Shown: positions 33,516 to 41,352 of the stretch, piece by piece
Numbering within the stretch: position 1 is the first letter of the stretch
Layout of the letters: each line of letters begins with the position of its first letter
NCBI GenBank assembly: GCA_007751255.1
Contig: CP036296.1
Span: forward strand, 744,001-808,000
Origin: Engelhardtia mirabilis
GTDB taxonomy: Bacteria; Planctomycetota; UBA1135; GCA-002686595
DNA: 64,000 nt
Direction of reading: 5' to 3'
Program-made: the position numbers and the translations under genes
Notes under the pieces: model-generated
Seen by the model: only the letters and a program-made list of their open reading frames with translations
Databases searched by the model: none
What the model was told of the DNA's origin: nothing

Positions 33516-34016
33516 CTACGGCAACACCGCCGGCGCCCGCTCGATGCGGATCGCCGCGCCGTCGCGCAGCTCGCCGCCCTCGAGGATCGCGGCGCGCACG
33601 CCGCCGCGGCGACGCAGGAGGGTCAGGCTGTCCAGCTCCAGGAGGCGGTCGAGATGGGCGCAGGGCGGGCAGGTGCCCGTGACGCGCACGAGCACCGTGC
33701 CGATGCGCAGGTGGGCGCCGACCAGGGCGCGCAGGTAGAGGCCGCTGACCACCAGGTTGCGCCGCAGGTCGCCGGGCGCGAGGTCGCGACCGCTCGCCGC
33801 GCGTAGGTGCTCGACGGCCTCGGCCGTGACGAGGGTCAAGTCGCGTCCGTTCGGGTTCGGCACCGGGGTGAAGGTGCCGGCCCCGTTCGCATAGCGATCG
33901 CCCTCGAGTCCGCGGCCGGGGATGGCTCGCGCGATCTCGACTTGCCGAGGCTGTGCGGTCGCGCGGGCCGCGATCCAGATCGACTCGAGGCGCGCGCCCA
34001 TGGCCTTCTCACTCAC
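33516..34016 (-). CDS. MOSC-domain protein
   Basis: A 166-aa protein consisting of one MOSC domain. These domains, related to molybdenum cofactor sulfurases, handle sulfur or metal-sulfur clusters. The family signature is present: GRGLEGDRYANG, LRRNLVVSGLYL, then TGTCPPCAHLD with the cysteine(s) expected to carry sulfur, and RGGVRAAILEGG. The start GTG 34016 overlaps the DctM stop by 8 bp; an internal ATG at 34001 is the alternative. Its coupling to a TRAP permease is not functionally obvious. Confidence 0.85.
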   Translation of the reverse strand: MSEKAMGARLESIWIAARATAQPRQVEIARAIPGRGLEGDRYANGAGTFTPVPNPNGRDLTLVTAEAVEHLRAASGRDLAPGDLRRNLVVSGLYLRALVGAHLRIGTVLVRVTGTCPPCAHLDRLLELDSLTLLRRRGGVRAAILEGGELRDGAAIRIERAPAVLP

Positions 34017-35349
34017 CCCCCGAGATCAGCGCGGTGACCAGCTCGGGGAAGGCGATCACCAGACCCAAGGCCACCAACTGGATGGCGATGAACGGCACCG
34101 CACCGCGGTAGATGGCCGAGGTGGGGATCTCCTTGGGCGCCACGCCACGCAGGTAGAACAGGGAGAAGCCGAAGGGCGGGGTCAGGAACGAGGTCTGCAG
34201 GTTCATGGCGATCATCACGCCGAACCACACCATCTGATCGTCCTCGATCCCCAGGGCCCGCGCGGCGGGCGCGATCAGGGGCAGGATGATGAAGGCGATC
34301 TCGAAGAAGTCGATGAAGAAGCCGAGTAGGAAGATCGCCACGTTGGCGACGATCAACAGTCCCACCACGCCACCCGGCAGGCCGGTCAACAGGTCCTCGA
34401 TCCACACGTCGCCGTAGACGCCGCGGAAGACCAGCGAGAAGGCCGTCGAGCCGATCAACAGGAACACGACCATGGTCGTGAGCCGCATGGTCTCGCGCGC
34501 CGTTCCGCGCAGGGCGGCGAGGGTGAAGCGGCCGCTGACCGCCGCCAGGAGGCACGCGCCGAGGGCGCCGAGGGCCCCGGCCTCGGTGGGGGTGGCGATG
34601 CCTGCGAAGATGCTGCCGAGCACCACCAGAATCAGGGTCAAAGGCGGCAACAGCACGCGGACCACGTCCAGGCCCAGGGAGCCGGCGGCCTCGGCGCGCT
34701 CGGCGGCGGGGATCGCGGGGGCCAGCTCCGGCCTAAGGAAGGCCACCGCGACCACGTACAGGGCGAAGAAGCCCGCCAGCATCAGCCCCGGCACCAGGGC
34801 CCCGACGAACAGGTCTCCGACCGACAGGCCGAGCTGGTCGCCGAGCACCACCAGCACCACGCTCGGCGGCACGATCTGACCCAGGGTGCCGGAAGCGCAG
34901 ATCACGCCGGTGGAGAAGCTCGGCGCGTAGCCGTAGCGGGTCATGATCGGCAGGGAGATCATGCCCATGGCGACCACCGATGCGCCCACCACGCCGGTCG
35001 CCGCCGCCAGCAGCACGCCGACGAAGACCACCGCCAGGGCCAGGCCTCCACGCATGGGGCCGAACAGGAGGCCGACGGTGCGTAGCAGGTCCTCCGCCAG
35101 CTTGGACCGCTCCAACATCGTCCCCATCAAGATGAAGAAGGGCACGGCCAGCAGCACCTGGTTGCCCATCACCCCGAACACCCGTTCGGGGAAGGCGAGC
35201 ATGAAGGTCCACTCGAAGTAGCCGGTGGCGACGCCGATGGCGGCGAACAGGAGCGACGTGCCGCCCAGGGAGAAGGCCACCGGGTAGCCGCTGAAGATCA
35301 GCAGGAACACGACCCCGAACATCAGCGGGCCCAGCCAGTCACCGCCCAT
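34009..35349 (-). CDS. TRAP transporter large permease (DctM family)
   Basis: A 446-aa integral membrane protein with about 12 hydrophobic segments. Family motifs are clear: LAVPFFILMGTMLERSKLAE, ATGVVGASVVAMGMISLPIM, GQIVPPSVVLVVLGDQ, GIATPTEAGALGALGA and a C-terminal FLTPPFGFSLFYLRGVAPKE. It carries substrate with Na+ and works with DctQ and the DctP-like protein. ATG 35349 shares one base with the DctQ stop (TGATG), so it is translationally coupled. Confidence 0.95.
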   Translation of the reverse strand: MGGDWLGPLMFGVVFLLIFSGYPVAFSLGGTSLLFAAIGVATGYFEWTFMLAFPERVFGVMGNQVLLAVPFFILMGTMLERSKLAEDLLRTVGLLFGPMRGGLALAVVFVGVLLAAATGVVGASVVAMGMISLPIMTRYGYAPSFSTGVICASGTLGQIVPPSVVLVVLGDQLGLSVGDLFVGALVPGLMLAGFFALYVVAVAFLRPELAPAIPAAERAEAAGSLGLDVVRVLLPPLTLILVVLGSIFAGIATPTEAGALGALGACLLAAVSGRFTLAALRGTARETMRLTTMVVFLLIGSTAFSLVFRGVYGDVWIEDLLTGLPGGVVGLLIVANVAIFLLGFFIDFFEIAFIILPLIAPAARALGIEDDQMVWFGVMIAMNLQTSFLTPPFGFSLFYLRGVAPKEIPTSAIYRGAVPFIAIQLVALGLVIAFPELVTALISGGE

Positions 35350-35939
35350 CAGCGTCCGCCCTCCACGCCGCCCGGTTCGGTGGCCGTGGGGTCGAGCTCT
35401 TCGAGGCCGACCTCCTGCGGGCTGCGGCCGGCCAGGACCGCGACGCGCTTGACCGCCTCCGAGAGGCCCTGCAGCAGCAGCAGGGCGAAGGCCAACAGCA
35501 CCACGGCCTTGATCGGCCAACGCGGCAGCCCGCCCGGGTCGGGGGAGACCTCGCCCACGGCGATCGACTCGCGCACCGCCGGCCACGAGGCCCACAGGGC
35601 GAAGACGCAGAAGGGCACCAGGAACAGCAGCGTGCCGACCAGGTCGATCCAGGCCTTGCCGCGGACTCCCAAGCGGCCGTAGAGCACGTCGACCCGCACG
35701 TGGGCACCCGAGCGCAGGGCCCAGGGGGCGCCGAGCAGGAAGACCAGGCTGAACAGGTACCACTGCAGCTCGATCCAGGCGTTGGAGCTGAGCTGCAGGT
35801 CGACGAAGCGTCCGGTGTAGCGGGCCAGGGCGTTGAAGGCGCCGACGGCCACCATCAGGGCGGTCAGCCAGGCCACGAAGCCGCCGACACGCCGATTGAG
35901 GGCGTCGACGAGGCCGGCGGCTGAGAGGAGTCCGTCCAT
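35349..35939 (-). CDS. TRAP transporter small permease (DctQ family)
   Basis: A 196-aa membrane protein with four hydrophobic segments. It has the DctQ signature SNAWIELQWYLFSLVFLLGA and GAHVRVDVLYGRLGVRGKAW. It forms the permease with the downstream DctM. There is no Shine-Dalgarno sequence; TAGTCT lies 10 nt before the ATG. Confidence 0.93.
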   Translation of the reverse strand: MDGLLSAAGLVDALNRRVGGFVAWLTALMVAVGAFNALARYTGRFVDLQLSSNAWIELQWYLFSLVFLLGAPWALRSGAHVRVDVLYGRLGVRGKAWIDLVGTLLFLVPFCVFALWASWPAVRESIAVGEVSPDPGGLPRWPIKAVVLLAFALLLLQGLSEAVKRVAVLAGRSPQEVGLEELDPTATEPGGVEGGR

Positions 35940-36042: not shown

Positions 36043-37155
36043 ATGATCAAACTCGCCGTTTCCGGCCTCGGACTGGCCTCGCTGCTCGGCATCGCCATGC
36101 CCGCGGCGCCGGCTGTCGTCCTCGCGCCGGCCACCGTCTTCATGGATTCGACGCTCCAGGAGGCCGGGGCCTGGCAAACCCTCGTACAGGCCTACGACGC
36201 GGCCGTCGAGCAGTGGCAGGCCAAGTACGACGAGGCCGGGGACCTGAAGGTCCGGCGGGCCCTGCGCCAAGAGCACCCGGCCATTGCCTATTGGGGGCGG
36301 GTCGGTGCCCTGGCCGACGCGGGCGAAGGGCGAGCCCTGGTCTGGCAGCTCGAGAACGCCGGACTTGCCGGACACACCGGCGCCGAGGGCCGCCGCGTGA
36401 AGGCCGAGGTCTACGGGCGCCTGTTCCCCGAGCACGTGGCCGCCGAGTGGTTCGAAGCTGTGGTCGCGCACTTGGCCAGCGACCGCCGCGCGGTCGGCGA
36501 CGAGCTGTTCGAGCGGTACCTGCGCTCGACCATCGACTCCGACGCACTGCCCGAGGCGAAGGCGCGCGCGCTCGTCACGCTCGGCTCCTGGTTGCTCGAG
36601 TCGGACGACGCGGCAACGGCCGAGGGCGGCTGGCCGCTGCTGGAGCGCGCCGCGAGCGAGTTCGGCGCGACCGAGGCCGGCGCCGAGGCCGGCGACCTGA
36701 TCTACGTCCGGCGCAACCTGATCGTCGGCGCGATCGCGCCCGACTTCGAAGGCACGACGATCGACGGCACGACCTTCCACCTCGCCGACCATCGCGGCAA
36801 GGTCGTCGTGCTCGATTTCTTCGGCTTCTGGTGAGGCCCTTGCCGCGGTGAGATGCCTCACCTGGCGGAGCTCGTGCAGCTCCACAAGGACCGTGACTTC
36901 GCGCTGATCGGGATCAATGCCTTCGACGACGAGGAGGCTTTCCACAAGGGCGTCGAGGAGTTCGGCGTGAACTGGACCGTGGCCTACCAGGCTGACTCCA
37001 AGGCGCCGATCTGCGACCTGTTCCGGGTCCAGGCCTACCCGACGATCTTCGTGCTCGACCCGGAGGGCCGCATTGCCGCCACGGGCCTGCGCGGGGAGTC
37101 CCTGGCAGCGAAGGTCGCGGAGATGCTCGACGCCCACGAGCAGCCGGCCGACTGA
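36043..37155 (+). CDS. TlpA/ResA-like thioredoxin selenoprotein (Sec-Gly-Pro-Cys active site, UGA at 36832-36834)
   Basis: Reading through TGA at 36832 as selenocysteine gives 370 aa. Residues 1-25 are a signal peptide (MIKLAVSGLGLASLLGIAMP). 30-230 is a helical region of unknown role. About 230-370 is a TlpA/AhpC-like redoxin: GAIAPDFEGTTIDGTTFHLA, then GKVVVLDFFGFW-U-GPCRGEMPHLAEL with Sec at residue 264 in place of the first CxxC cysteine, then FALIGINAFDDEEAFHKG, and VQAYPTIFVLDPEGRIAATG with the cis-Pro before TIF. The frame after UGA runs 107 codons to TGA and holds every expected thioredoxin element, so UGA is not a true stop. A hairpin lies 8-34 nt after the UGA (36843-36868). It is probably a periplasmic thiol-disulfide oxidoreductase. 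Automatic gene calling will split or truncate it. Sec machinery is not in the window, so its presence elsewhere in the genome is assumed. Confidence 0.85.
36843..36868 (+). promoter_or_regulatory. Candidate bacterial SECIS hairpin downstream of the UGA
   Basis: Stem CCGC + GGTGAG (36843-36852), loop ATGC, then CTCACC (36857-36862), a 2-nt TG bulge and GCGG (36865-36868): ten base pairs in all. The loop begins 18 nt after the UGA, inside the 16-37 nt window described for bacterial SECIS elements, and contains a G. GC-rich coding sequence forms hairpins easily, so this is supportive rather than proof. Confidence 0.6.
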
Positions 37156-37192: not shown

Positions 37193-37226
37193 ACGAGTCT
37201 TCCCTCGGATGGGGGAGGGCTCGTTT
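37193..37226 (+). terminator. Rho-independent-type terminator after the selenoprotein gene
   Basis: ACGAG (37193-37197) pairs with CTCGT (37220-37224) and CCCTC (37202-37206) with GAGGG (37215-37219), followed by TTT. It sits 38 bp after the stop at 37155. Confidence 0.6.
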
Positions 37227-37306: not shown

Positions 37307-37669
37307 ATGACCCTGCCCACCGACGACGGTCTGCTGTTGCTCCACAACCCCGCCTGTTCCAAGAGCCGCGCACTCGAGCAGGCGTTGCGAGAGCGTGGTG
37401 TCGCGTTCACGACTCGGCTCTACCTGGACCAGCCGCTGGATGAGGTCGAGTTGGCCGATCTGATCCGTCGGCTCGGCGTGCAGGCGCGCGACATCGTGCG
37501 ATCGGGCGAGCCGCAGTACGCGGATGCCGGCCTGCACCCACGTTCCGAGACCGCGGCGATCCTCGACGCGGTGGCCTGCTATCCGCAGTTGCTCCAGCGG
37601 CCCGTGCTGCTGCGGGGCGAGCGGGCGGCGATCGGACGTCCCCTCGAAGCGGCCCTCGAGCTGCTCTGA
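37307..37669 (+). CDS. arsC: ArsC-family arsenate reductase (glutaredoxin type)
   Basis: A 120-aa protein, the usual ArsC length. LLHNPACSKSRALEQAL contains the catalytic Cys. The oxyanion-binding Arg positions are at DIVRSGEPQYADAGL, QRPVLLRGERAAIGRPLE. It reduces arsenate to arsenite with glutathione/glutaredoxin, or belongs to the closely related YffB/Spx-like group. No ars operon partner (ArsB, ArsR) is next to it. A TAGCTT hexamer about 60 nt upstream (37244) is a possible -10. A weak hairpin follows the stop (GGTCGC 37670 / GCGACC 37692). Confidence 0.85.
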   Translation: MTLPTDDGLLLLHNPACSKSRALEQALRERGVAFTTRLYLDQPLDEVELADLIRRLGVQARDIVRSGEPQYADAGLHPRSETAAILDAVACYPQLLQRPVLLRGERAAIGRPLEAALELL

Positions 37670-38011: not shown

Positions 38012-39556
38012 ATGAACACCAAGACCCTGCCCGTCCTCTGCGGCGTGGCCGCCGCGCTCGCGCTCGCCGGGACGGCGAACGCGCAGTCCTTCGGCAACGC
38101 CTGCGCCGGCAACACCGGTAACACCCCGACCGTCGGCATCACCGGCCTCGTCGTCCAAGGCAACAACTTCACCGTCGACCTGACCGGCGCCCCGAGCACC
38201 ACGGGTCTGATGTACGTCGGCGGCTCGAACGTCCTCGGCCTCGGCCTGCCCCTGCCCCTCGACCTGGGCCTGTTCTCGCCCGGGCTCACCGGCTGCGAGC
38301 TGAACGTCAGCACCGACATCTCGATCGGCTACGCCCTCGACGTCACCGGCGCCGCGAGCTTCACCTTCGACGCCACCGGCATCCCGGCCGGGATCCCGCT
38401 CTACCTTCAGAACTGGAACTGGGACTTCGACCTGGTGACCTTTGCCAACCTCGGCGGTTGGTCGGCCGGCTTCGAGTTCGAGGTCGTGCCCCCCAGCGGC
38501 GTCGCTGCCGGCGACCTGGTCATCAGCGAGTACATCAAGGACCCCTCCTTCTCGGCCGACGCCGGGGGTGAGTGGATCGAGCTGTACAACACGACCGCCA
38601 GCGACATCGACATCCGCAACTTCGTCCTGTCGGACAACGACTTCGACAGCACCGTGCTGATCAGCGCCACGCCGATCATCGTGCCCGCCGGCGGTTACGC
38701 CGTGCTCGGTAACGACGCCGATCCGGCCAACAACGGCGGCATCACCCTCGACTTCCAGTACGCCAGTGACAACGGCCAGTACTTCCTGGCCAACGGCGCC
38801 GACGAGATCGTCCTGACCACCTACGACGGCATCGAGGTCGACCGCATCGAGTACGACTCGGGCGCCCTGTGGTCCGACGCCGCGGGTCTCTCCTTCGCCC
38901 TCAACGACGGCGCGCTCGACGCGACCCTCAACGACGACCCGGCTAACTGGGCCGAGTCGGCCTGCTACATCGGCGGCGCCCCGTTCAACACGGACCTCGC
39001 CACCCCCGGCACGAACAACGCCTCCTGCGCCATTCCCACCCTGCCCGCGGGCACCGGTGAACTCGTCATCTCCGAGTTCTCCCAGAACCCGGCCGCCGTC
39101 GCCGACAGCGCCGGCGAGTACTTCGAGGTCCACAACCCCGGTGGCGTGGACGTGGACATGAACGGCTGGACCATCTGCACCGTGGACGTCTGCGAGACCC
39201 TGGCGGTCTCGACGGTCGTCCCCGCGGGCGGCTACCTGGTCTTCGCGGTCAACGGCGACCCGCTGCTGAACGGCGGCCTGCCGAGCAGCACCGTGGCCAT
39301 GACCGCCGGTCAGTTCCTGACCAACTCCACCGGCAGCATCCAAGTGGTGGACGCGGCCAACCAAGTGGTCGGGATCATCGTCTACGACGACGGCGCGACC
39401 TACCCGGACGGCAACGGCGCCTCGGCGTCGCTGGACCCGACCAAGCTGACCGCCGCGGACTCGCAGGTCGGCGCCAACTGGTGCCTGTCGACCAGCCCCT
39501 ACGGCGACGGCGACCTGGGTACCCCGGCGGCCGCCAACGATAGCTGCGGCCTCTAG
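38012..39556 (+). CDS. Secreted lamin-tail-domain (LTD) protein, first paralogue
   Basis: A 514-aa protein with a Sec signal peptide (MNTKTLPVLCGVAAALALAG then TANAQ). Residues about 25-160 match a beta-rich domain common in planctomycete exoproteins (FGNACAGNTG, LPLPLDLGLFSPGLTGCELN). Two LTD immunoglobulin-like domains follow, at about 167-335 and 346-505, each with the signature of a start such as GDLVISEYIKDPSF, EWIELYNTT, IIVPAGGYAVLGND and a closing GTPAAANDSCGL type end. LTD proteins are cell-surface or extracellular, often attached to nucleases or adhesins; no catalytic domain is present here, so a structural or adhesive role is likely. It is the paralogue of the next gene, with the same length and domain order. 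Confidence 0.85.
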   Translation: MNTKTLPVLCGVAAALALAGTANAQSFGNACAGNTGNTPTVGITGLVVQGNNFTVDLTGAPSTTGLMYVGGSNVLGLGLPLPLDLGLFSPGLTGCELNVSTDISIGYALDVTGAASFTFDATGIPAGIPLYLQNWNWDFDLVTFANLGGWSAGFEFEVVPPSGVAAGDLVISEYIKDPSFSADAGGEWIELYNTTASDIDIRNFVLSDNDFDSTVLISATPIIVPAGGYAVLGNDADPANNGGITLDFQYASDNGQYFLANGADEIVLTTYDGIEVDRIEYDSGALWSDAAGLSFALNDGALDATLNDDPANWAESACYIGGAPFNTDLATPGTNNASCAIPTLPAGTGELVISEFSQNPAAVADSAGEYFEVHNPGGVDVDMNGWTICTVDVCETLAVSTVVPAGGYLVFAVNGDPLLNGGLPSSTVAMTAGQFLTNSTGSIQVVDAANQVVGIIVYDDGATYPDGNGASASLDPTKLTAADSQVGANWCLSTSPYGDGDLGTPAAANDSCGL

Positions 39557-39679: not shown

Positions 39680-39807
39680 GGTGCGTTCGGGGGCCGTTCC
39701 CGACCCTGGCTCTGGGGCGCGATCGGGGGCAGCAGGTCGCGCGGCACTCAGGCCGATCCAGATGGGCCGAGCGTCTCGCCCGCAGCCCCTTCTGAAGCCC
39801 AGTGACC

Positions 39808-41352
39808 ATGCGCCCCGCCAATACCCTGCGACCCTCGACCCAAGCCCTGATCGCCGCCCTCGCCGCCTGTGGAGTCTCCGCTCCTGCCGCCGCCCAGACC
39901 TTCGGCACCGGCTGCGCCGGAGCCAGCGGCAAGACGCCCACGATCGAGGCCGACGAGCTGATCGTCGACGGGAGCGACTTCGGCGTCGAGATCACCGGCG
40001 GGCCGAACCTGTTCGGCTACCTGCTGGTGGGCGCGAACAACACCACCTGGAACGGCTTGGACTTGCCCCTCGACCTGGGGGCCTTCGCCTTTGGTGACTG
40101 TGACTTGCTCGTGTCAGTGAACATCGTCGTGCCCATCACCACCGATGGTCTCGGCCAGTCGAGCCTGACCCTGCCCGGCTTCGGTGGGTTCATCGACGTC
40201 TACCTGCAGGTCGTCCTGGCCGACGTCGACCTGGTCGACTTCGATCCGCCTGCGGCCTTCAGCGCCGGTTTGACCATCACCGGCGTCCCGGCCAGCCTGC
40301 TCCAGCCCGGCGACCTGGTGATCACCGAAGTGATGAAGGACCCGTCCTTCGTCACCGATGGCTTCGGTGAGTGGTTCGAGGTCTTCAACACCACCGACGC
40401 CGACATCGACGTCAACCACTGGACGATCACGGACGGAGGGACGGACTCGATCCTGCTGGACGCCGGCGCGCCGCTGATCGTCCCCGCGCACTCCTTCGCG
40501 GTCCTCGGCAACAACGCCGACCCGGCCGTCAACGGCGGGATCGACATGCTGGTGGACTACTCGCTCTACGGGACGCTCAATTTCTCCAACGCGGCCGACT
40601 CGCTGGTCCTGACCACGCCCGACCAGATCGTCGTCGACGCGATTGTCTGGGACGATGGCGTGGAATGGCCCGATGAGCCCGGACAGTCCATGCAGCTCGT
40701 CGAGGGGGTCTTCGAGTTCGACCTCAACGACGACGGCGGCAATTGGGAGGTCACCGAGTGCTTCATCGGGGGCACGCCCTTCAATACCGACCGCGGCACC
40801 CCCGGAACGCCAGCGGGCGACTGCGCGAACCCGACCCTGCCCTTCGGGACGGGTGAGATCATCTTCTCGGAGATCATGCAGAACCCCTCGAGCGTTGCGG
40901 ACACGGTGGGGGAGTGGTTCGAGGTCTACAACACCACCGGCGCCGCGATCGACCTGGACGGTTGGACCTTCGCCCAGGGCGGTGGGAGCTTCGTCGTTGC
41001 CGGTAGCTTCAGCGTGCCCGCCGGGGGCTATCGCGTGCTCGCGCGCATCGGCGACTCGCTGGTGAACGGCGGCCTACCCCTCGACGTCTACGACTACGAC
41101 GACACCTTGTTCCTGCCCAACGGCAGCCAGACCCTGACGATCCTCGACGCGTCCGGCGCCACGTCCTGCCTGCTGCAGTACGACAACGGGCTGACCTACC
41201 CCGACCCCTCGGGGGCGTCGATGTCCCTGGACCCCACGCACCTGGACGTGGCCAGCGCCGTGGACGGATCGTTCTGGTGCGAGGCGATCAGCCTCTACGG
41301 CGACGGGGACCTCGGGACCCCGGGCGTTGCGAACGACTCCTGCGGTCCCTGA
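39808..41352 (+). CDS. Secreted lamin-tail-domain (LTD) protein, second paralogue
   Basis: Also 514 aa from ATG 39808 (a GTG two codons earlier is the alternative). A signal peptide ends near AAAQ (residue 30), followed by the same TFGTGCAGASG N-terminal domain and two LTD domains beginning near GDLVITEVMKDPSF (about 168) and GTGEIIFSEIMQNPSSV (about 346), with motifs EWFEVFNTT/EWFEVYNTT and the same GTPGVANDSCGP ending. The conserved order and equal length show a tandem duplication. Its own hairpin-separated position suggests independent transcription from the first copy. Confidence 0.85.
   Translation: MRPANTLRPSTQALIAALAACGVSAPAAAQTFGTGCAGASGKTPTIEADELIVDGSDFGVEITGGPNLFGYLLVGANNTTWNGLDLPLDLGAFAFGDCDLLVSVNIVVPITTDGLGQSSLTLPGFGGFIDVYLQVVLADVDLVDFDPPAAFSAGLTITGVPASLLQPGDLVITEVMKDPSFVTDGFGEWFEVFNTTDADIDVNHWTITDGGTDSILLDAGAPLIVPAHSFAVLGNNADPAVNGGIDMLVDYSLYGTLNFSNAADSLVLTTPDQIVVDAIVWDDGVEWPDEPGQSMQLVEGVFEFDLNDDGGNWEVTECFIGGTPFNTDRGTPGTPAGDCANPTLPFGTGEIIFSEIMQNPSSVADTVGEWFEVYNTTGAAIDLDGWTFAQGGGSFVVAGSFSVPAGGYRVLARIGDSLVNGGLPLDVYDYDDTLFLPNGSQTLTILDASGATSCLLQYDNGLTYPDPSGASMSLDPTHLDVASAVDGSFWCEAISLYGDGDLGTPGVANDSCGP

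Follow-up and report, generated by a model that had tools for sequence, protein, structure and literature searches.

Bacterial selenoproteins with a thioredoxin-like domain and a UxxC motif, in which U stands for selenocysteine (Sec), have been described repeatedly. Prx-like thiol:disulfide oxidoreductases of this type (PF00578, UxxC) are known from the Sargasso Sea, Geobacter and other sources (PMC1088965; PMC1794560; PMC13188914), and both Prx-like and TlpA-like UxxC selenoproteins are in print (PMC1088965; PMC1794560; PMC9312934; PMC13188914). Reviews list the cd02966 and PF08534 UxxC types as separate subfamilies (PMC9312934; PMC13188914). For Planctomycetes, both selenoproteins and the Sec machinery are on record (PMC4807772), and the supplementary selenoprotein list of that paper may include a redoxin similar to the one considered here. 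Among the matches listed in open-licence PMC, no title dealt with the Sec redoxins of the Planctomycetota order to which the present genome belongs. A sequence-only reading of the locus had taken bacterial thioredoxin-like selenoproteins of the UGPC type as already established, which agrees with the literature (PMC1088965; PMC13188914).

The gene lies in the window, the whole stretch of 64,000 nucleotides that was analysed (G000:C1:744001-808000), within a genome of 6.95 Mb in two contigs (G000). On the plus strand, the frame at 36043-37155 is open except for a sole internal stop, the TGA at 36832-36834, and is terminated by a second TGA at 37153-37155. Its features, with the evidence for each, are the following:

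36043..37155, plus strand: read-through open reading frame, predicted to encode a selenoprotein of 370 residues (263 + Sec264 + 106); from the sequence, the domain match and the family comparison
36043..36723, plus strand: N-terminal part, residues 1-227, with a hydrophobic start followed by a stretch that has no Pfam match; from Pfam, the start judged by eye
36724..37080, plus strand: redoxin (TlpA/ResA-like) domain, residues 228-346; from the AhpC-TSA match and a sequence-profile match to ResA structures
36832..36834, plus strand: in-frame UGA, putative Sec264; from codon comparison with the family
36832..36843, plus strand: predicted U-G-P-C active-site motif; from the codons of the family, with C267 invariant in 44 aligned sequences
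37039..37041, plus strand: codon of proline 333 (cis-Pro position), invariant in the same 44 aligned sequences

The frame around the internal TGA reads VVLDFFGFW, the stop codon, then GPCRGEMPHL. The sequence-only reading had placed the UGA where the first cysteine of the CxxC motif of a TlpA/ResA redoxin belongs, which is borne out by the frame, by Pfam and by the codons of homologues, and it had located a cis-Pro loop, QAYPTIF, in the downstream part, where this loop is indeed encoded with its proline as residue 333. Its count of 107 codons past the UGA holds for the continuation in the same frame but includes the stop, so that 106 residues follow. When the gene is read through, residues 228-346 give one Pfam AhpC-TSA match of 77.1 bits (cut-off 26), and the Redoxin match is likewise above its cut-off (59.2 bits; cut-off 26.6). 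Scored apart, the two halves match positions 1-33 and 40-123 of the AhpC-TSA profile; these parts abut, and the UGA therefore interrupts one domain. The GC content of the three codon positions is alike on both sides (0.75/0.49/0.91 before the UGA and 0.73/0.40/0.92 after it). These observations bear on the possibility that the UGA is a true stop, which would separate a 263-residue protein from a separately started one of 100 residues. Either half is an open frame of the sort that gene callers could report, and the ATG at 36853 opens the second; yet each half would be an incomplete redoxin, the Cys homologues, including a syntenic orthologue of a Sec gene, encode one continuous protein, and the hairpin described below is selected in Sec genes but not detectably in seven Cys genes. 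We regard two separate products as very improbable. The second of them had been expected to look unrelated; its length of 100 residues is what this ATG gives, but the 3' half alone still matches AhpC-TSA with 37.5 bits.

The product would have a thioredoxin fold, to judge from these matches. Its nearest solved structure by sequence profile is ResA (4nmu, E 1.6e-31), followed by thiol-disulfide oxidoreductases including ResA and TlpA, and its nearest NCBIfam family is also ResA (NF002854), with 85.1 bits over residues 225-363. Because this score does not reach the cut-off of 170, the protein is described here as a ResA-like oxidoreductase and is not filed as ResA. Among the Cys forms ResA, TlpA and StoA it is thus nearest to ResA 4nmu, from which it differs by Sec in place of Cys and by its extra N-terminal part. 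The family NF041054 (ResA-like WAxxUGC selenoprotein) is likewise ResA-like and, by its name, contains Sec, but its motif differs and the window protein scores 26.1 bits against a cut-off of 300. With the PF00578 UxxC selenoproteins, the window protein shares the Pfam family and the UxxC motif with Sec first, a likeness drawn from their description and not from their sequences, whereas it differs by its N-terminal part of about 227 residues and by its setting in a Planctomycetota order whose genes, as far as read, have Sec more often than Cys. The cd02966 UxxC (thiol-disulfide isomerase-like) and PF08534 UxxC (Redoxin) selenoproteins have a TlpA-like domain and the motif as in the window protein. 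The protein fits the PF00578 or TlpA-like UxxC selenoproteins broadly and may belong to any of these subfamilies. This is a known kind of protein, the Prx-like/TlpA-like UxxC selenoproteins, to which the window gene adds a member.

The proposal that the genome encodes the Sec machinery was confirmed, since SelA (461 bits), SelB (313 bits), SelD (318 bits) and tRNA-Sec (70 bits; anticodon tca by ARAGORN) each exceed their curated cut-offs. SelB has an additional C-terminal match of 33 bits, its open frames being given as 797 aa. All four genes have coordinates outside the window, and the scan of the 64-kb window found no tRNA and no Rfam match at the gathering threshold. The selA gene adjoins selD (C1:2446683-2449100), and the latter (L018:1501-1560; G000:C1:2448168-2449100) is itself a Sec gene, with an internal TGA that reads CAG-U-AAK. 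Across the order, selA was matched at E <= 1e-30 in 143 of 154 genomes (139 over the cut-off), among them 52 of the 53 genomes of best quality. The 11 genomes lacking a match are drafts of 56-90% completeness, and some of them (for example G033, G057 and G059) carry a TGA homologue, which we attribute to missing sequence. A tRNA-Sec was found in 20 of the 21 genomes of the order that were searched, our own included, and none in G093.

Homologues of the window gene at E <= 1e-20 occur in 136 of the 154 genomes of the order, again counting its own. Among the matches listed, 90 family rows were read (30 loci, one of them the window gene, and 60 fetched sequences); these comprise all six listed stop-free rows and the sole TAG-only row, the rest being taken from the top down with some lower rows skipped. 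A scan of the collection with exact peptide patterns of one protein gave two loci, of which L051 (NORP259, a Planctomycetota MAG) was added to reach 91 sequences; it is not independent, because its trimmed protein is identical to L032. Excluded from the 91 were L052, a Luteimicrobium locus with 35% identity over residues 215-363 that had been set aside ahead of any counting, the AhpC-TSA matches of our own genome outside the family (L053-L057, L060, L063-L065) and the paralogue L062, L058 being the window gene again. At the position of the window's TGA, the 91 sequences have TGA 84 times, TGC four times and TGT three times, so that Cys codons do replace the TGA in seven relatives, as had been suggested for checking. 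Without the window gene the counts are 83 TGA and seven Cys codons in 90 sequences, and 82 and seven in 89 rows if L051 is also removed. That relatives might likewise end at this codon had been named as grounds for rejecting the Sec reading; none of the 84 Sec homologues does so, their frames running 85-162 codons further, in three cases up to the end of the available stretch. Extra stops at +102 to +106 in some alignments are the normal gene end; this also holds for the TAG of the TAG-only row, L072, which has Cys. In 44 aligned sequences (37 Sec and 7 Cys, with Sec written as Cys), position 264, C267 and P333 do not vary. The window gene has no close relative, the best identity being 46% over 185 columns. 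Of 392 genomes sampled throughout the phylum, 83 match at E <= 1e-25, and these include members of the order; the matches listed mostly contain one TGA and in some cases none, counted irrespective of position.

In 66 close pairs, which share sequences among them, changes at codon positions 1/2/3 number 654/480/1456 downstream of the UGA and 451/354/1096 upstream of it; the third-position excess on both sides points to coding constraint in the relatives downstream as well. A recent nonsense mutation from TGC or TGT to TGA, which would make the gene a dying pseudogene, takes a single base change, and Cys homologues from which it could have arisen exist. This explanation is nevertheless exceedingly improbable, as the same TGA stands in 83 of 90 other family sequences, those aligned being only 25-40% identical to the window protein, and it is further opposed by the downstream constraint and by the presence of the Sec machinery.

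Codon reassignments of UGA occur in bacteria, and this precedent favours a reassigned or leaky UGA read as Trp, Gly or Cys without selenium. UGA is, however, also a normal stop here: it terminates 42 of the 93 genes read (the 91 sequences and the own-genome paralogues L059 and L061; TAG 41, TAA seven, three unread), and 35 of the 44 long gene-like open reading frames of the window end in UGA, the codon at 36832-36834 probably being among the 35. The code is therefore taken as unchanged. Moreover, only Cys codons replace the UGA among the 91 family sequences, and a dedicated SelA-SelB-SelD-tRNA set is present, which leaves reassignment or leaky reading with a very small probability.

Decoding of a UGA as Sec in bacteria is associated with a hairpin, the bSECIS, and the match between SelB and its SECIS can be specific to a species. 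The published model has the bSECIS start 16-37 nt past the UGA, with a G within the first two nucleotides of the apical loop and an energy of -7.5 kcal/mol or below (PMC13188914). The corresponding feature of the window gene is:

36841..36867, plus strand: bSECIS-like hairpin, stem 36847-36852/36857-36862, loop AUGC at 36853-36856, 18 nt past the UGA; from a single-hairpin fold

With its loop of 4 nt (AUGC, or GAUGCC upon opening of the innermost G-C pair), its position 18 nt past the UGA and its energy of -16.1 kcal/mol, this hairpin lies within the published position, loop size and energy. Across the family, the best single hairpin with a loop of 3-9 nt and a start 14-30 nt past the codon was compared with 40 recodings per gene, in which the protein was kept and the codon usage of the family followed. 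The 84 Sec genes (73 distinct stretches) have a mean z of -2.39 and are negative in 77 cases; averaged within genus groups, z is -2.16 +/- 0.20 and 38 of 39 groups are negative, L051 (identical to L032) being counted as a group of its own. In contrast, the mean z is -0.18 for the seven Cys genes and -0.26 +/- 0.11 for a control stretch that lies 30 codons downstream, measured in 83 Sec genes. A first run of the test had given -2.29 for Sec and -0.08 for Cys genes, and in a cruder test, which took the 45 nt past the codon, the values were -1.92 (86 genes) and -0.63 (seven genes). Hairpins of -7.5 kcal/mol or lower are found in 70 of 84 Sec genes, the remaining 14 being weaker, versus two of seven Cys genes. 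The spacing is at least 16 nt in 63 Sec genes and 14-15 nt in 21, and a G occupies one of the first two loop positions in 22 of the 84 best hairpins.

The window gene itself has a z of -3.1 and -2.43 in two runs of the hairpin test, but its fold is weak in others, with -1.03 in the cruder test and -1.78 against dinucleotide shuffles of the 42 nt past the UGA; for a longer stretch that includes the UGA the value is -1.16, and the alternative fold preferred there pairs the UGA itself. Pairing conserved in one register across the family was not found: RNAalifold on the 84 sequences returned no consensus structure and no pairs, the window's register, when imposed on every sequence, pairs in 48% of cells, a share that some slid registers equal or exceed, and the best hairpins use several registers. 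Such pairing is no part of the published model, although it would have been the strongest evidence at the RNA level. We therefore rely on the synonymous shuffles of each sequence. Compensatory changes within register groups (for example A-U versus C-G, columns 20/27) are not independent evidence, as the groups were chosen by hairpin. By comparison with the recoded genes, selection acts on the hairpin in Sec genes, whereas none is detectable in the seven Cys genes.

A pair of orthologues illustrates this difference. L102 (G041, TGA) and L070 (G040, TGC) come from one genus, are sister rows on the tree (SH-aLRT 100) and are syntenic, the flanking open reading frames matching one after another along about 10 kb; the genes themselves share 74% nucleotide identity. 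L102 has a stem of seven pairs (GUGCGGG-GCCU-CCCGCAC) and a z of -3.67 in the synonymous test, whereas L070 is without this stem and has a z of +1.09. Dinucleotide shuffles give +0.15 and +2.21, respectively, so that the total energy of L102 is accounted for by its composition, and only the synonymous test singles out its hairpin. A quick maximum-likelihood tree of 93 rows requires five changes to explain the Cys forms, and well-supported branches make at least three of these unavoidable. The direction from Sec to Cys is likely but not proved, because the tree was midpoint-rooted for drawing only. Cys forms occur in genomes that retain selA (G013, G014, G040, G051, G054, G056, G079). In G014, a Sec, a Cys and a Sec redoxin gene (L024, L067, L095; C4:168-4842) are consecutive on one contig of 9.4 kb, and elsewhere in this genome (C36:45909-46259) an AhpC-TSA match with two TGA codons is perhaps a UxxU form.

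The same genome as the window has 13 AhpC-TSA matches, four of them with a TGA (the window gene, L059, L061 and L054), and together with SelD this gives five Sec genes found among the AhpC-TSA matches and SelD. L059 (G000:C1:169182-169490) and L061 (2717120-2717470) are W-UGA-GPC redoxins with 285 and 267 residues past Sec, which the tree places apart from the window's family, and L054 (1300-1900) is a peroxiredoxin with DTPG-UGA-T (TxxU type). The paralogue L062 (G000:C1:4453397-4454287; E 8.3e-32), which is not among the listed rows of the survey of the order, has AGC (Ser) at the Sec position and SPVA in place of UGPC; both redox residues are therefore missing. The pattern W-UGA-x-P-C has 17 matches in the genome versus 10 in a reversed control, and a redoxin is recognisable on both sides in three of them, the window gene, L126 (= L059) and L132 (= L061); the other 14 were dismissed, by eye from composition and residues, as chance or other frames. 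In ten genomes, our own included, at least 56 AhpC-TSA rows with a TGA were counted by eye, 1-9 per genome among the matches listed, the position of the TGA being known for our own four and a few shared with the 91.

Downstream of the gene, one further element was recorded:

37198..37218, plus strand: terminator-like hairpin 3' of the gene; two overlapping sites in the 2 kb scanned, 0.7 expected

The transcript may thus end there. An ArsC-like protein follows at 37307-37669 (TIGR00014, 97.8 bits, just under the cut-off of 106), and two tandem proteins of similar build lie at 38012-39556 and 39802-41352, each of which contains two stretches of lamin tail domain (LTD) and, by eye, looks secreted. 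On the minus strand, a pair at 34009-35939, divergent from the selenoprotein gene, consists of a TRAP large permease (dctM, 346.6 bits) next to a probable small subunit that has no NCBIfam match, and a MOSC-domain protein (PF03473, 51.3 bits) lies at 33516-34016. None of the adjoining genes is an operon partner that points to a substrate.

In the explanation that we consider best, the UGA at 36832-36834 would be decoded as Sec by SelB and tRNA-Sec, guided by the hairpin that starts a few nucleotides downstream, and the product would be a redoxin of 370 residues with a hydrophobic N-terminus and an N-terminal part that has no Pfam match. Judged by eye, the N-terminus resembles a signal peptide, and the protein would be exported and act outside the cytoplasm as a ResA/TlpA-like thiol-disulfide reductase, a role that we consider moderately probable. 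In thioredoxins, the attacking residue is the N-terminal one of the CxxC motif; here the selenol would attack the substrate disulfide and C267 would resolve the intermediate. The protein might instead serve mainly in peroxide reduction, as a Prx-like enzyme, or in metal or selenium handling, and its best Pfam name, AhpC-TSA, speaks for this. Disulfide exchange is better suited by the UxPC motif with its invariant second Cys and the cis-Pro position, and also by the nearest curated families and solved structures, which are ResA/TlpA, so that a peroxidase or metal-related function appears rather unlikely. Comparison supports the reading of the UGA as Sec, the presence of coding sequence on either side of it, the Sec machinery and selection on the hairpin. 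That the UGA encodes Sec appears nearly certain, and the full account of a selenoprotein decoded by SelB and tRNA-Sec under guidance of a hairpin, a thioredoxin-fold redoxin with a Sec-Gly-Pro-Cys site, is highly probable.

Standard annotation would split the window protein in two, and its relatives likewise. The reach of the family in the order is wide, with a homologue in 136 of 154 genomes and the UGA in 83 of the 90 rows read, window gene included. The distinctive point is where the gene occurs: selA is present in 143 of 154 genomes of this Planctomycetota order, the genes read have Sec more often than Cys, and exchanges between the two recur. It is an evenly balanced proposition that, in this order, Sec is the ancestral and normal catalytic residue of multi-copy exported ResA-like redoxins, from which Cys is repeatedly derived, and that the SECIS is kept as a shape and not as a sequence, sliding in register, mostly without the loop G, and decaying after the change from UGA to TGC. 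If this were true, the extracytoplasmic disulfide system would be selenium-dependent across the whole order. The L102/L070 pair makes the benefit of selenium in a thiol-disulfide oxidoreductase and the rate of SECIS decay directly testable, and the findings suggest that published counts of bacterial selenoproteins may underestimate the Planctomycetota.
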